From the NCBI RefSeq assembly GCF_030129945.1, contig NZ_JARRAF010000007.1, positions 62,001-126,000 of the forward strand: a stretch of DNA of 64,000 bases, in the 5' to 3' direction. Shown here one piece after another: positions 38,349-46,106 of this stretch. Both the position numbers and the translations under genes were made by a program. The notes beneath the pieces were generated by a model. That model ran no database searches. It worked only from the letters and a program-made list of their open reading frames with translations, and was not told the origin of the DNA. Source of the DNA: Parachitinimonas caeni (GTDB taxonomy: Bacteria > Pseudomonadota > Gammaproteobacteria > Burkholderiales > Chitinimonadaceae). The stretch's first letter is position 1. Every line of letters begins with the position of its first letter.

Positions 38349-39704
38349 ATGTTCGAAAAGATCCTGATCGCCAATCGTGGTGAGATCGCGCTACGCATAC
38401 AGCGCGCCTGCCGCGAAATGGGTATTAAGACTGTGGTCGTCCATTCCGAAGCTGACCGCGAAGCCAAGTACGTCAAACTCGCCGATGAGTCGGTGTGTAT
38501 TGGCCCCGCCCCGTCCAGTCAAAGCTATCTCAACATCCCCGCCATCATTTCTGCAGCAGAAGTGACCGACTCTCAAGCCATTCACCCTGGCTACGGCTTC
38601 CTGTCCGAAAACGCAGACTTTGCCGAGCGGGTCGAACAATCCGGGTTTGTATTCATCGGGCCAAGACCAGAGTCGATCCGCTTGATGGGTGACAAGGTTT
38701 CGGCCAAAGACGCCATGAAGGCGGCTGGGGTTCCATGCGTACCCGGCTCGAATGGTGCCCTGCCAGACGACCACAAGGAAATCGTCAAAACAGCCAAGCA
38801 GATCGGATTTCCCATCATCATCAAGGCCGCTGGCGGCGGCGGCGGTCGAGGCATGCGGGTTGTTCATACCGAAGGTGCCTTAATCCAGTCCGTCGAAATG
38901 ACCCGGGCGGAAGCACAGACCGCTTTCGGCAACCCGACTGTCTACATGGAAAAGTTTCTGGAGCACCCCCGCCACATCGAGATACAGATACTGGCCGACG
39001 AATACGGCAATGCCATTTATCTGGGAGAGCGGGATTGCTCCATGCAACGCCGGCACCAGAAAATTATTGAGGAAGCCCCTGCTGTCGGCATCACCCAGAA
39101 GCAGCGCCAGAAGATTGGCGAAGCTTGTGCGGAAGCCTGTCGCAAGATGGGCTACCGCGGAGCAGGAACCTTTGAATTCCTGTTTGAGGACAATGAGTTC
39201 TACTTCATCGAGATGAACACGCGAGTGCAGGTAGAGCACCCGGTCACAGAGATGATTACCGGCATTGATATCGTTCAGGAACAGATCCGTATTGCAGCCG
39301 GTGAGAAGCTGCGCTACTCGCAAAAGCAGGTAGAACTGCGCGGCCATGCCATTGAATGCCGAGTCAACGCCGAAGACCCATTCAAGTTCACCCCAAGCCC
39401 CGGCCGGATTGCGACTTACCATACACCTGGCGGCCCAGGCATTCGTATCGACTCGCATATTTACCAGGGTTATTTCGTGCCGCCCAACTACGACTCGATG
39501 ATCGCCAAGGTCATAGCCTATGGCGACACCCGCCAGCAAGCGATCGCTCGGATGCGGGTCGCCTTGTCAGAAATGGTGGTCGAAGGCATTCAAACCAACA
39601 TCCCGTTGCATCAGGAGCTCTTTGCCGACCCATCCTTCGTGAAAGGCGGGACGTCGATCCATTATCTGGAGAAACGACTGGCTGATCGTAAAACCAGCAA
39701 TTGA
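38349..39704 (+). CDS. accC: Biotin carboxylase
   Basis: This 451-residue ATP-grasp enzyme has [15 protein letters not shown], the ATP loop [14 protein letters not shown], and the active-site [16 protein letters not shown]. It carboxylates biotin on AccB using ATP and bicarbonate. It lies 88 bases after accB. A terminator follows. Confidence 0.98.
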
Positions 39705-39848: not shown

Positions 39849-40736
39849 ATGCCTTGGCATGAACTTCGCATCCAGGCCGACTCCAAGTTGGCCGAACAAC
39901 TCTCCGATATCCTGTTTGATCTAGGCGCGCTCAGTGTCAGCATTGAAGATGCCACCGCCGGCACCGAGCAGGAAAAGCCGATTTTCGGCGAACCCGGCAT
40001 GCCTCTGGAACAACTGTGGGAGCACAGCATTGTGGTCGCATTGCTGGCAGAAGAAGCGGACCCACACCTGTTTGCGGCAGGAGCCGCCCAACAGGCAGGC
40101 ATCCCACTCCCTACCTACGATATTAAGCACATTGAAGAGCAGGATTGGGTACGTGCCACCCAGGCACAATTCGACCCGATTCAAGTCTCCAACCGGCTCT
40201 GGATTACCCCCACCTGGCATCAACAGACACCCGACGCCATCAATATTGCCCTCGACCCCGGCCTGGCATTTGGCACCGGTAGCCATCCCACCACCTGGCT
40301 CTGCCTGCAGTGGCTGGATGAGCAGATTGCAGGCGGAGAAACTGTACTCGACTACGGCTGTGGTTCCGGCATTCTGGCAATCGCCGCCAAGCTGCTTGGA
40401 GCCACCAAAGTTGACGGCGTGGATATTGATCCACAAGCCATGATCGCCAGCCGACAAAACGCCGAGCAGAATCAGGTCAGCATGGATTTCTTTCTGCCGG
40501 ATGCTGCGCCAGATGCTCAATACGATATTGTCGTCGCCAATATACTTACCAACCCGCTGAAACTACTGGCCGCACTCTTTGCAAGCCGCTGCCGAGCCGA
40601 CGGTCAGCTGGTGCTATCGGGGATTCTGGTGGAGCAGGCGGAAGAGGTCATCGAGATTTATCGGCCTTGGTTTAACCTCGAAGTCAGCGCGGAGCGAGAA
40701 GGTTGGGTCCGCCTTGCCGGGCTGCGTAAGCAGTGA
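39849..40736 (+). CDS. prmA: Ribosomal protein L11 methyltransferase
   Basis: This 295-residue protein begins MPWHELRIQ and has GLAFGTGSHPTTWLCLQWL, the SAM loop VLDYGCGSGILAIAAKLLGA and VVANILTNPL, all PrmA signatures. It trimethylates ribosomal protein L11. Position downstream of accC is common in this class. Confidence 0.96.
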   Translation: MPWHELRIQADSKLAEQLSDILFDLGALSVSIEDATAGTEQEKPIFGEPGMPLEQLWEHSIVVALLAEEADPHLFAAGAAQQAGIPLPTYDIKHIEEQDWVRATQAQFDPIQVSNRLWITPTWHQQTPDAINIALDPGLAFGTGSHPTTWLCLQWLDEQIAGGETVLDYGCGSGILAIAAKLLGATKVDGVDIDPQAMIASRQNAEQNQVSMDFFLPDAAPDAQYDIVVANILTNPLKLLAALFASRCRADGQLVLSGILVEQAEEVIEIYRPWFNLEVSAEREGWVRLAGLRKQ

Positions 40737-41158
40737 CGGGTGCAGGCACGATATTGCCAAATAGCCATACCAAGCGGGCTTCGGGAACCAGGCGATAAGT
40801 TCCAGAAGCCCGGCAGAGCCGCGATTTCCGCAAACACAGGTCTCCGGGGCGGCACATAACAACCCCCGCGAGCCCCCTTGGCTAGTGGCCGTTTGGCCTC
40901 ATCGTCAATCGCTTCTCTGCCTGAGCTCAGCTCATCAGCCCACCCCGGCAGACGTTGCCAAGTACGCAACAATGCGCTAAACACACCGGGGACCCCATCT
41001 ACTCGCGCCAGAACTACCGATCTGGCTTGGTTGTACACAAAAACGTGGCAAACTAGGCTCTGTTGGTATGTATATTGCGGGACCGACAGGCTATGCAGCC
41101 CCCTGCCGGTGCTGCTATTTCTGCAAACCGTTTCAGAGAAAACCGAAAACACCAAACA
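40737..41158. other. Gene-free region with a MITE-type terminal match
   Basis: I see no gene with family support in these 420 bases; the long minus-strand frame crossing it resembles nothing I know. It contains TAGGCTCTGTTG at 41054-41065, identical to the terminal 12 bases of the right end of the MITE-like element at 43158-43379. A partial or solo copy is therefore possible. The downstream gene's promoter should also be here. Confidence 0.4.
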
Positions 41159-42334
41159 ATGTTCCATGTCACTCGCTGCCCAAACTGCCGTACCAGCTTC
41201 AAGCTGACCGATGCGCATTTGACCGCGTATGGTGGAAAAGTCCGCTGTGGCCGCTGTGCCTTTGTGTTTGACGCCAGAGACCACATGCTCAGCCATGGCG
41301 AAAATCAATCGCCGACGACTCCGGCCCCGGCTCAGACGGCCAGCACGCCGCCAGAAACCGCTACCGCAACTCAGGCAGCCACACCCATAAAGGCGCCTCC
41401 CGCGCCCATCACCAAACCTGCAGAGGAAGACAACCTGTACGGGCTCAATGACATCTCGATCCAGTTGAAAGCAACTGCCGAGACAGAGTCTTCAGATGGC
41501 AGTCTCACCGACAAGTCACTGCGAGAACTGGCTGATGCGCTCAAGACGCCGGCGCCAGCCGAAGTCCAGATACCACCCCCTCCCCCTCCCGCACCAGAGA
41601 AGGCTGAAGAGCCTGGCAAGACCTTGCTGGAGCTGAATTTCGACATCGCCGCTCAGCTGGAGAAAGCGATTGAAGCCGCTTCCGATTTCAGCAATCTGCC
41701 ACCCGTAGAGGCCACAAGTCCGGGCAATGCCGCTGCAGATGCCTTTAGCCGCAGCAGCTTTGATGACCACAAAGCAGGCGAGTATCGTCCGATCCTTACC
41801 TCAGAGGACGAAGCGTTGCTCAGCCTGCCACCGGAGCCCTCGCCTTGGCGTTGGCTATGGTTGATACCGGCTTTTATCGCTTGCGTTGCCCTGGTCGCCC
41901 AGGCTGCGTACTTCTTCCGGTCCGAGCTGGTCGTCCAGATGCCAGGACTGAAGTCCCGCTTTGAAAATCTCTGCGCACGAGCCGGCTGCGAAATTGCCCT
42001 GCCCGCCAAGCAAGATTTTCTGAGAACAGAGTGGTCGGAGCTGACCTATCTGCCAGATCAGCCCAACCAGATGCAGGTCAACGCCACCTTGCGCAATCAT
42101 GCTCCGTTTGATCAGGCCCTACCGTTGCTCGAACTGACTCTGACCGATGATCATGACCGGGTCGTGGCAAAGAAGGTGTTCACGCCGACCCAATACCTAC
42201 CCGATAACGGCGGCAAGCGCCCCAAGGCACTGGCTGCGAATGTGGATCAACGTGTTTTCCTTCAGTTGCAGCTTGATGGTGCCAAGTCCACAGGCTATTC
42301 GATTTATTGGTTCTACCCGAAACCTGATCGCTGA
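41159..42334 (+). CDS. Zinc-ribbon, single-helix DUF3426 protein
   Basis: This 391-residue protein has an N-terminal MJ0042-type zinc ribbon (CPNC and CGRC within the first 30 residues). A long Pro/Ala/Glu-rich linker (about 50-220) leads to one membrane helix (WLIPAFIACVALVAQAAYF, about 240-260) and a C-terminal DUF3426 domain. The topology is a cytoplasmic zinc finger with a periplasmic C-terminus. It is commonly downstream of prmA in betaproteobacteria. The ATG at 41159 starts at the finger (MFHVTRCPNC). Function unknown. Confidence 0.87.
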   Translation: MFHVTRCPNCRTSFKLTDAHLTAYGGKVRCGRCAFVFDARDHMLSHGENQSPTTPAPAQTASTPPETATATQAATPIKAPPAPITKPAEEDNLYGLNDISIQLKATAETESSDGSLTDKSLRELADALKTPAPAEVQIPPPPPPAPEKAEEPGKTLLELNFDIAAQLEKAIEAASDFSNLPPVEATSPGNAAADAFSRSSFDDHKAGEYRPILTSEDEALLSLPPEPSPWRWLWLIPAFIACVALVAQAAYFFRSELVVQMPGLKSRFENLCARAGCEIALPAKQDFLRTEWSELTYLPDQPNQMQVNATLRNHAPFDQALPLLELTLTDDHDRVVAKKVFTPTQYLPDNGGKRPKALAANVDQRVFLQLQLDGAKSTGYSIYWFYPKPDR

Positions 42335-42485
42335 GCCTCTCAAGCGTTCACGGTTTATCGTGGCTAGGCATGCACAGCCACATCCGCAGCATCACGCAGC
42401 AGGCATGGCTTGGCCGCAGCTTGAATTCGTGCACCGGGCCATCAATACTGAAATGAGCCACCCTACGTAGCCAGGAGGAATCGAG

Positions 42486-43001
42486 ATGGCAACCATTATG
42501 CTGAACGGCGAACCGATTGGGGTCGGCGGTCGTTTTCCCCAAGTCGGAGACACCGCTCACAGCTTCATGCTGGTTGACAACAATCTGGGAGATGTATCGC
42601 TCAGCAAGTTTTCCGGCAAGCGCAAGATTATTGCCGTCGTGCCGAGCGTTGACGCAGAGATCGGCCTGAAGATCGCTCGCCGGCTAGAAGCAATTGCCGA
42701 CAACTTCGCCAATACCAAGATGATTCTGGTATCGGTTGATACTCCTTACGCCCAAGCCCGTGTTACCGCCGTTGAAGGTTTCCGCAAGCTGCTGATGCTG
42801 TCCACCTTGCGCGGCCGGGACTTTCACAAGGACTACGGTGTCATGATCACCGATGTCCCACTTTCCGGCATGATGGCAACCGCCCTGATCGCAATGGATG
42901 AGGCAGATACCGTCCAGTATTCGGAATTGGTTCAAGACGTCAACTCGGAGCCCAACTACGAAAAAATGGCAGATGCCATGCTGCCGCCGGAAGAGGGCTG
43001 A
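42486..43001 (+). CDS. Cysteine-free thiol peroxidase (Tpx) paralogue
   Basis: This 171-residue protein aligns without gaps to the Tpx encoded at 43453: GDVSLSKFSGKRKI, the FPSID-type loop VPSVD, and LSTLRGRDFHKDYGV. It contains no cysteine at all. The peroxidatic Cys60 position is Gly (DAEIG instead of DTPTC) and the resolving Cys94 position is Thr (AQARVTAVEG). It therefore cannot work as a peroxidase. The fold and the RGRDF element are kept, so it is probably a maintained non-enzymatic protein. AGGAGG precedes the ATG. Regulatory, scaffold or partner roles are possible. Confidence 0.88.
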   Translation: MATIMLNGEPIGVGGRFPQVGDTAHSFMLVDNNLGDVSLSKFSGKRKIIAVVPSVDAEIGLKIARRLEAIADNFANTKMILVSVDTPYAQARVTAVEGFRKLLMLSTLRGRDFHKDYGVMITDVPLSGMMATALIAMDEADTVQYSELVQDVNSEPNYEKMADAMLPPEEG

Positions 43002-43157
43002 GTCAGGCTGGAGTGACGCGATTGCCGACGCAATCAGCCTGCCACTTCAAATTCGCGCATCAAGCCCCAAAATACATAACGGCCCAGCCATTGGCGGCCG
43101 TATTTTTTTGTACAGGCCGGTTTTTTGAGCATGCCCATTTGTGCTGAACCAATGCCT

Positions 43158-43379
43158 TAGGCTCCGTTGACGTTTTGTTTTGGGATCGCGCTTTGCCCCC
43201 GCAAGGAGGATGCGTTGCCAGTAAGCCGCTTGGCAGCAGCCACGCAAGGCCAGGTCGAGTTTTAGAGTATGGTGTCATTAGGGTCCGCTTATTGCGCTGA
43301 CTAAACCGCTCTCACCCTGCCTCGTCCCGCCCTTAAACTCGGCCCGGCGCGACCGGAAACAAAACGTCAACAGAGCCTA
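43158..43379. mobile_element. MITE-like element with 23-25 bp terminal inverted repeats
   Basis: The left end TAGGCTCCGTTGACGTTTTG (extending to 43181) and the right end (43355-43379, reverse complement TAGGCTCTGTTGACGTTTTG and on) match at 22 of 23 positions. They enclose about 175 bases without a transposase. TA bordering each end may be the target duplication. The ends resemble those of IS5-group elements by general form, which is a memory-based comparison. It sits between the two tpx paralogues. Confidence 0.72.
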
Positions 43380-43452
43380 CGGCTAGTGCAGCACATGCGG
43401 AAATTGCATACCAACAAAGCCTGAACTACCACTTCCCACTGGAGAACACACA

Positions 43453-43953
43453 ATGACAACCGTAACACTTGGTGGCAATCCGATTCCGGTCAACGGCAAA
43501 TTCCCAACCAAGGGTGATAGCGCCCCAGCGTTCAGCCTGGTCGGAAAAGATTTGAAGGATGTCACGCTGGCGGACTTTGCCGGCAAGCGCAAAGTGTTGA
43601 ATATTTTTCCGAGCATCGACACCCCAACCTGCGCCATGTCCACACGGAAGTTCAACGCTACAGCCAACGACATCGCCAACACCGTCGTACTGTGCATCTC
43701 TTCCGACCTGCCGTTTGCACAAGCTCGCTTCTGCGGCGCGGAAGGGCTGGATAAGGTCATTACCCTCTCGACCATGCGTGGACGGGACTTCCTGCTCAAC
43801 TATGGCGTGGAAATTGCCGGCGGCCCCTTGGCTGGCGTTACCGCCCGCGCAGTCGTTGTGCTGGATGAGCAGGACAAAGTGATCCACTCCGAAATGGTCG
43901 CCGAAATCAAGGATGAGCCTAACTACGACGCAGCATTGGCTGTATTGAAGTAA
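43453..43953 (+). CDS. tpx: Thiol peroxidase
   Basis: This 166-residue atypical 2-Cys peroxiredoxin has the peroxidatic Cys60 in [12 protein letters not shown], the resolving Cys94 in [10 protein letters not shown] and the Arg-containing LSTMRGRDF. It reduces H2O2 and alkyl or lipid hydroperoxides using thioredoxin. The spacing equals that of E. coli Tpx (Cys61/Cys95). GGAGAACACACA precedes the ATG. A strong terminator follows at 43968. Confidence 0.96.
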
Positions 43954-45857: not shown

Positions 45858-46106
45858 TTACTGCTTCTTGGCTTCTTCTTTCTTAGCTTCTTCTTTCTTC
45901 TCTTCTTTCTTGTCGGCCTTCTTGTCAGCCTTCTTGTCGGCCTTCTTCTCTTCCTTCTTCACTTCTTCTTTCTTCTCTGCAGTAGCAGCAGGCTTGGCTT
46001 CAGCAGCGGCAGCAGGCTTAGCAGCTTCTGCAGTCTTTGCAGGCTCAGCAGCGATAGCAACAGTGGCGAACAGGGTAGCGATCAGGGCAGCGAACAGCTT
46101 CGTCAT
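45858..46106 (-). CDS. Exported Lys/Glu/Ala-rich low-complexity protein
   Basis: The 82-residue protein has a clear signal peptide (MTKLFAALIATLFATVAIAA). After it come Ala/Lys/Glu-rich stretches: AEAAKPAAAAEAKPA, then tandem KADKKADKKADKK and EEKKEEAKKEEAKK. The mature part would be a charged extended or helical chain in the periplasm. No family is recognised. The repeats are tandem at DNA level (GTCGGCCTTCTT units, minus strand complement), so copy number may vary between strains. It has its own terminator and is likely monocistronic. Confidence 0.78.
   Translation of the reverse strand: MTKLFAALIATLFATVAIAAEPAKTAEAAKPAAAAEAKPAATAEKKEEVKKEEKKADKKADKKADKKEEKKEEAKKEEAKKQ

Follow-up and report, generated by a model that had tools for sequence, protein, structure and literature searches.

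Peroxiredoxins are very common proteins, and annotation equates a match to the thiol peroxidase (Tpx) family with a peroxidase. A paper on a nematode peroxiredoxin reportedly uses the phrase 'lacks the peroxidatic cysteine'. No account of a cysteine-less Tpx was found in the literature searched; subscription journals lay mostly outside that search, so such a protein may already be published. The folds nearest to the protein described here, which we call TpxA, are those of Escherichia coli and Yersinia Tpx (PDB 3hvv, 4af2 and 2xpd; Z 29.6-30.3, rmsd 0.8-0.9). These proteins have interface residues in common with TpxA but differ from it in being atypical 2-Cys peroxidases with the pair Cys61/Cys95. 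In Yersinia Tpx, loops from both subunits make up the substrate cleft, Arg110 bonds across the dimer to main-chain groups of Gly125, Pro126 and Ala128, and Asp57 contacts Arg93 when the protein is oxidised (PMC3288085). A dead peroxiredoxin subunit that still assembles is described for the Prx1 type, where Cys-free subunits enter hetero-oligomers; those subunits differ in being engineered mutants of another subfamily (PMC13038412). The closest catalytically equipped relatives, which we term the H type (Thiobacillus, Hydrogenophilus, Sulfuricella and others), have the fold family, length and RGRDFHKDYGVMI motif of TpxA and are 46-56% identical to it (20 compared). The H type keeps Cys60 and Arg132 in 39/39 proteins and Cys94 in 38/39, whereas TpxA has none of these residues and carries Leu67, Thr86 and Tyr88. 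One member of the TpxA lineage has already been solved: PDB 3keb, released in 2009 as 'Thiol peroxidase' from Chromobacterium violaceum, has no Cys in the matched stretch (chain residues 3-176), although it is titled as an enzyme. It superposes on the TpxA model with Z 26.8 and rmsd 1.7 over 171 residues at 36-38% identity, and has Pro at the place of Arg132 and Ser86 and Ser88 where TpxA has Thr86 and Tyr88.

TpxA and an intact Tpx, TpxB, are encoded on the same strand of the window, the whole 64,000-nucleotide stretch of DNA that was analysed (Table 1). They are the only Tpx-like genes of their genome at E <= 0.001. The two proteins, 45% identical, show no alignment gap until about residue 158, and the open reading frames bear out what the initial annotation had read from this alignment, namely Gly for the peroxidatic Cys60, Thr for the resolving Cys94 and no cysteine anywhere in TpxA. 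Its description of an intact frame with a good ribosome-binding site likewise agrees with the sequence. The substitutions go further than the two cysteines: positions 54, 57, 60, 81, 94 and 132 read S T C C C R in TpxB and S A G L T T in TpxA, such that TpxA also has Ala for the motif residue Thr57 and Thr for the catalytic Arg132, two changes that the initial annotation leaves out. The three cysteines of TpxB are those at 60, 81 and 94. The features of a thiol peroxidase, a peroxidatic Cys within PxxxTxxC, a resolving Cys at 94 and a catalytic Arg at 132, are thus all missing from TpxA. The protein is nonetheless recognised as a member of the family, since it matches Pfam Redoxin (E 2.3e-13) and exceeds the cut-off of the NCBIfam thiol peroxidase equivalog NF001808 (161.6 bits against 123), and all 20 window-type members scanned match that model over its full length at E <= 0.001.

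Table 1. Features of the TpxA locus, in window coordinates.
Feature	Position	Strand	Remark
accC-like biotin carboxylase gene	38349..39704	+	named by eye
prmA (ribosomal protein L11 methyltransferase)	39849..40736	+	
Zinc-ribbon/DUF3426 gene	41063..42334	+	directly upstream of TpxA
AGGAGG ribosome-binding site	42473..42478	+	read directly; 7 nt 5' of the TpxA ATG
Pseudo-Tpx gene, TpxA	42486..43001	+	ORF, 171 aa, 0 Cys
TpxA codon 60	42663..42665	+	Gly replacing peroxidatic Cys
TpxA residues 85-89, DTPYA	42738..42752	+	
TpxA codon 94	42765..42767	+	Thr replacing resolving Cys
TpxA residues 107-123, TLRGRDFHKDYGVMITD	42804..42854	+	T107 and R109-H114 invariant in 53/53 proteins of three pseudo types
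TpxA codon 132	42879..42881	+	Thr replacing catalytic Arg
Intact Tpx, TpxB	43453..43953	+	ORF, 166 aa; Cys60, Cys94 and Arg132 present

Two further elements of the window were observed. Between TpxA and TpxB (43158-43379) lies a MITE-like element whose terminal inverted repeats read taggctccgttgacgttttgttt / aaacaaaacgtcaacagagccta; it gives 95 matches in its own genome, 40 of them at >= 144 bits (40 of 372 candidates scored). A small ORF at 45858-46106 on the minus strand encodes an apparent signal peptide followed by a Lys/Glu/Ala repeat tail (KKADKKADKKADKKEEKKEEAKKEEAKK).

Is this loss a peculiarity of one genome or a property of a lineage? The initial annotation had proposed searching for cysteine-less Tpx in relatives, and orthologues with open frames do exist: a pseudo-Tpx is present in 106 of 125 genomes from five families. 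It occurs in 10/10 genomes of f1, the family of the window (by its named loci Chitinimonas and a single metagenome bin), and adjoins TpxB in all of them. Family f5, which the named loci identify as Chitinibacteraceae (Chitinibacter, Deefgea, Chitiniphilus, Andreprevotia, Chitinilyticum, Iodobacter and others), has it in 36/43 genomes, each with TpxB as well; the seven f5 genomes without it belong to two genera and gave a TpxB-like match only. It was further found in 4/5 genomes of family f32 and, as a distant form reached via PDB 3keb, in 3/6 of family f51 and 53/61 of family f27. The last is probably Chromobacteriaceae, because a gene of its genus g64 (locus L283) nearly matches the C. violaceum structure (E 1.6e-109). 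In a sample of 300 genomes from the order, no family besides f1, f5 and f32 reaches the window-type score class (>= 288 bits), the next score being 255. A profile search of 399 genomes with the f27 and f51 types gave no further family at their score level, with the best other rows among the matches listed at <= 161 bits, and more divergent losses could escape such a search. The pseudo-Tpx was not found in 19 of the 125 genomes, including all those sampled of genera g127, g136, g164 and g166, and must therefore be dispensable.

Cys60, Cys94 and Arg132 are all gone in 106/106 of the genomes with the gene, and chance or a sequencing slip is excluded because the catalytic residues are missing in every one of them. 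Position 60 is Gly in 103/106 genomes and Ser in the three f51 genomes, whose loop is shorter and whose alignment here is uncertain; position 94 is Cys in 0/106; position 132 is Thr in 49, Pro in 56, Ser in 1 and Arg in none; and the motif Thr is gone in nearly all. The Tpx used for comparison have Cys60 and Arg132 in 88/88 and Cys94 in 87/88. The complete absence of cysteine, which the initial annotation treated as a trait of the protein, did not hold across the set: in the stretches read, which were fetched to stop about 30 bases past the match, 61/106 members are Cys-free and the remaining 45/106 have one to three other cysteines, none of them common to the 106 proteins. Several individual proteins deserve mention. 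The f51 proteins, when aligned, have a shortened active-site loop, and in two f51 genomes (G267 and G140; loci L140 and L144) the pseudo-Tpx is present and a TpxB search at E <= 1e-5 returned no other Tpx. An Iodobacter-like genome (G322, locus L116, 2131-2628) has a third Tpx copy, with cysteines, beside its tandem of TpxA and TpxB. An H-type Tpx at L078 539-1042 (same match in L106) keeps Cys60 and Arg132 but reads Arg where the resolving Cys94 would stand, and is possibly a natural 1-Cys Tpx.

The rates of substitution show that the pseudo-Tpx is constrained, somewhat less so than the intact Tpx and, in f27, clearly less. Near pairs (dN < 0.12) give a median dN/dS of 0.062 over 203 pairs of the window type, the highest value being 0.175, and of 0.113 over 112 pairs of the f27 type, with a maximum of 0.344; the pairs behind these medians are not independent, and in the window-type set some rows duplicate others of the same species (47 of 66 rows are distinct over residues 1-160). 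In 16 chosen window-type pairs, TpxA gave dN/dS of 0.014-0.123, comparable to the 0.028-0.158 of TpxB in 15 of the same pairs, identical proteins having been collapsed in one. When all pairs with dS of 0.1-1.0 are taken, the medians are 0.231 for the window type (237 pairs, up to 0.45) and 0.381 for the f27 type (868 pairs, up to 0.989), a rise with distance that we put down to saturated dS. In comparisons of the same genomes, TpxA has 1.24 times the dN of TpxB (666 pairs), and for the f27 type dN is about 2.9 times as high as for the intact Tpx (55 pairs). The orthologues, open frames, low near-pair dN/dS and fixed catalytic loss support the proposal of the initial annotation that TpxA is under selection for a non-peroxidase function, and the frameshifts, relaxed selection or lack of orthologues that it had named as marks of a decaying duplicate were not encountered.

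Where did this protein come from? The initial annotation described TpxA as a paralogue beside an intact Tpx. That it is a duplicate of this neighbour is not supported: the tree, a shared motif and gene order all group it with the H type, defined as Tpx with both cysteines and the motif KDYGVMI. This motif is common to TpxA and the H type and absent from TpxB, and the H type is, judging by its residues, catalytically intact. In the first tree, the window type and the TpxB type each form one clade (100 for both), and the window type stands with the H type apart from TpxB at 100. In the tree with outgroups and the f27 and f51 forms, the window type, H type, f27 and f51 come together at 100 and the TpxB type at 82. 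A recent duplication of TpxB as the origin of TpxA is therefore rejected by tree and motif. We also considered whether the H type contains the window type. In the trees as drawn, the window type groups with the H-type Tpx of family f14 at 87 and 96, but a single-clade H type is not rejected: forcing it gave AU p values of 0.451 and 0.587, and in the second test the constrained tree was better by 6.1. For this reason we claim only that the loss took place either within the H type or next to it. The three pseudo forms constitute one clade at 100, a value to be read with a long-branch warning. The outgroup tree also puts the f27 and f51 rows within the window type, at the end of a very long branch; we do not rely on this position.

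The gene order agrees with this grouping. A DUF3426 gene lies immediately upstream of the pseudo-Tpx at 28/28 loci (L021-L047 and L065), with locus L117 of the f5 genome G318 as an exception; prmA is found at 26 of these 28 loci, where the stretch read may end before it, and accC at 20. The f27 form stands directly after DUF3426 at 11/11 f27 loci, so that DUF3426, with prmA and accC where covered, is common to window-type and f27 loci. In 3/3 f14 genomes an H-type Tpx with cysteines stands directly after DUF3426, and in two f5 genera without the pseudo-Tpx (one genome each) this place is taken by TpxB alone. On this gene order, TpxA appears to descend from a Tpx that formerly occupied the locus, with TpxB as a separate Tpx next to it. 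On the other side, secB and gpsA flank the f27 form in L183 and L184 and likewise the f51 form in L185 and L186, a neighbourhood confirmed with Pfam in L183. Although the f27 and f51 branches are long, one origin of the catalytic loss is likely, because DUF3426 precedes the f27 form and secB and gpsA stand beside both the f27 and the f51 forms.

Loss of the catalytic residues appears not to have been accompanied by loss of the fold. An AlphaFold monomer model of TpxA built from 70 rows has a pLDDT of 93.6 and is closest to reduced Tpx (Z 30.3, rmsd 0.8), and the best Foldseek and VIA-align matches of this predicted thioredoxin-type Tpx fold are Tpx chains; a first model from 20 rows was poor at residues 109-128 and was replaced. 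Across 53/53 proteins of the three pseudo types, invariant residues outside the segment 107-114 listed in Table 1 are R92, G118, V119, P125 and G128. Among the residues aligned with the Yersinia interface, Arg109, Pro125 and Arg92 are thus kept in 53/53 proteins and Asp56 in 50/53, with Arg109 corresponding to Yersinia Arg110 and Arg92 likewise aligning with a dimer-interface residue. The Asp57-Arg93 contact is described for oxidised Tpx, and this is a state closed to TpxA.

Which of these conserved positions speak for a new function? The invariance of RGRDFHKDYGVMITD was at first sight a candidate proof and was rejected, as H-type relatives with both cysteines share the motif; therefore only changes relative to the H type count. 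Conservation of KDYGVMI and Met130 is, for the same reason, no sign of a new function, because both also occur in the H type (Met130 in 8/39). Thr86 and Tyr88 are found in 39/39 window-type proteins, where the H type has Leu86 (37/39) and Phe88 (39/39), and the other new states of the window type are Gly60 (39/39), Leu67 (38/39) and Thr132 (38/39); the window type is in addition invariant at 122, 127 and 130, where the H type varies. The pocket is not the same in all pseudo forms: the window type has Thr86, Tyr88 and Thr132, and the f27 type has Ser86, Ser or Phe88 and Pro132. Because these residues differ between the two types, one common ligand is not obvious.

Given that an intact Tpx so often stands next door, one hypothesis is that TpxA is a regulatory or structural subunit of TpxB, with the two joined in heterodimers through the interface they have in common, where the inactive subunit would adjust the active one. 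The tandem order of the two genes in 10/10 f1 genomes and in 35 of the 36 f5 genomes with TpxA is what such a partnership would predict, as are the interface residues kept in TpxA and the operon-like spacing of 16-17 bp in three f32 genomes (L099, L100 and L101). However, those three are the only such cases among 37 tandem loci; the other 34 have 36-252 bp between the two genes, and the window has 451 bp. Linkage fails altogether elsewhere, as the intact Tpx lies at another place in 11/11 f27 genomes checked and in G238, and TpxA and TpxB are about 51 kb apart in G318. Co-occurrence is not constant either: no active Tpx was found in G164, a fragmented assembly, nor in G140 (100% complete) and G267 (87% complete) at E <= 1e-5, while the same result for G466 and G467 (the latter 80% complete) was obtained at E <= 1e-20 only and is weak, since intact Tpx score down to 8.1e-22. 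The tree distances of 26 loci show no special coupling, in that the value for TpxA with TpxB given prmA (0.34) is lower than that of TpxA with prmA given TpxB (0.50) or of TpxB with prmA given TpxA (0.40). Prx1-type enzymes can take up Cys-free mutant subunits alongside live ones, but the authors of that study regard hetero-oligomers as likely restricted to the Prx1/AhpC type (PMC13038412). The partnership with the adjacent Tpx that the initial annotation had suggested is thus at odds with unlinked genes in the f27 genomes, G238 and G318, with five genomes lacking a detected active Tpx (two of them weakly so) and with the absence of special coupling, and we consider it unlikely.

The remaining alternatives dispense with a partner. 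A chaperone-like role has been reported for some oxidised Prx1-type enzymes, and TpxA might similarly act as a chaperone or store by virtue of its fold, with no specific ligand; a protein that keeps fold and dimer residues and has lost catalysis would fit that description. Those chaperone forms are, however, high-order Prx1 oligomers and not Tpx dimers, and the invariant RGRDFH loop together with the changed pocket points to something more specific, which makes such a role rather improbable. Simple decay of a redundant Tpx under relaxed selection would account for the second, intact Tpx of most genomes with the gene, for the 19 genomes in which the gene was not found and for the long branches of the f27 and f51 types. 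It would not account for open frames in 106 genomes of five families or for new states that are fixed or nearly so, and it is already contradicted by the near-pair medians of 0.062 and 0.113, so that we regard decay as very improbable. Still harder to credit is continued redox activity through other residues or another cofactor. The one to three additional cysteines of 45 members could be invoked in its favour, but no cysteine is common to the set, the 61 members without any in the stretch read include the window protein, and Arg132 is gone in all 106 and the motif Thr in nearly all.

We hypothesize that TpxA is a conserved pseudoenzyme, that is, a Tpx turned non-catalytic homodimer that binds a ligand or a partner in its old cleft, and we regard this reading as probable. 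The loss is conserved, the gene is under purifying selection, and locus and motif are shared. A Tpx of the RGRDFHKDYGVMI type standing after prmA and DUF3426 would have lost both catalytic cysteines and the Arg in an ancestor shared by several of the order's families, plausibly in a single event, and peroxidase work would have been left to a different Tpx or another enzyme. Because the Tpx fold and the dimer-interface residues are kept, the product most likely still forms the A-type homodimer. The former active-site cleft by the interface, with its fixed or nearly fixed Gly60, Leu67, Thr86, Tyr88 and Thr132 in the window type, would then most likely bind a small ligand or a partner protein, without thiol chemistry. 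A more specific proposal, which we offer tentatively, is that these proteins are a dedicated bacterial family of pseudo-peroxiredoxins whose interface pocket, once used for peroxide, now receives a non-peroxide ligand or lets a partner dock. The neighbourhood is often related to lipids: many loci of the window and f27 types have accC upstream, and gpsA adjoins the pseudo-Tpx in the f27 and f51 loci that were read. One might guess from this at a role connected with acyl or phospholipid metabolism, but neighbourhood alone proves nothing, and the same locus is occupied by an H-type Tpx in f14.

These observations carry a warning for annotation: the window protein lies above the cut-off of an NCBIfam 'equivalog' thiol peroxidase model, which thus admits a non-enzyme, while the single f27 protein scored lies below it (59 against 123 bits). 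In a whole branch of Tpx, represented by at least 106 genomes and one solved structure, catalytic loss is fixed and purifying selection persists. This makes the pseudo-Tpx a clean natural case of an antioxidant enzyme becoming something else, probably a binding protein, and the 2009 structure 3keb may already show what its pocket looks like.
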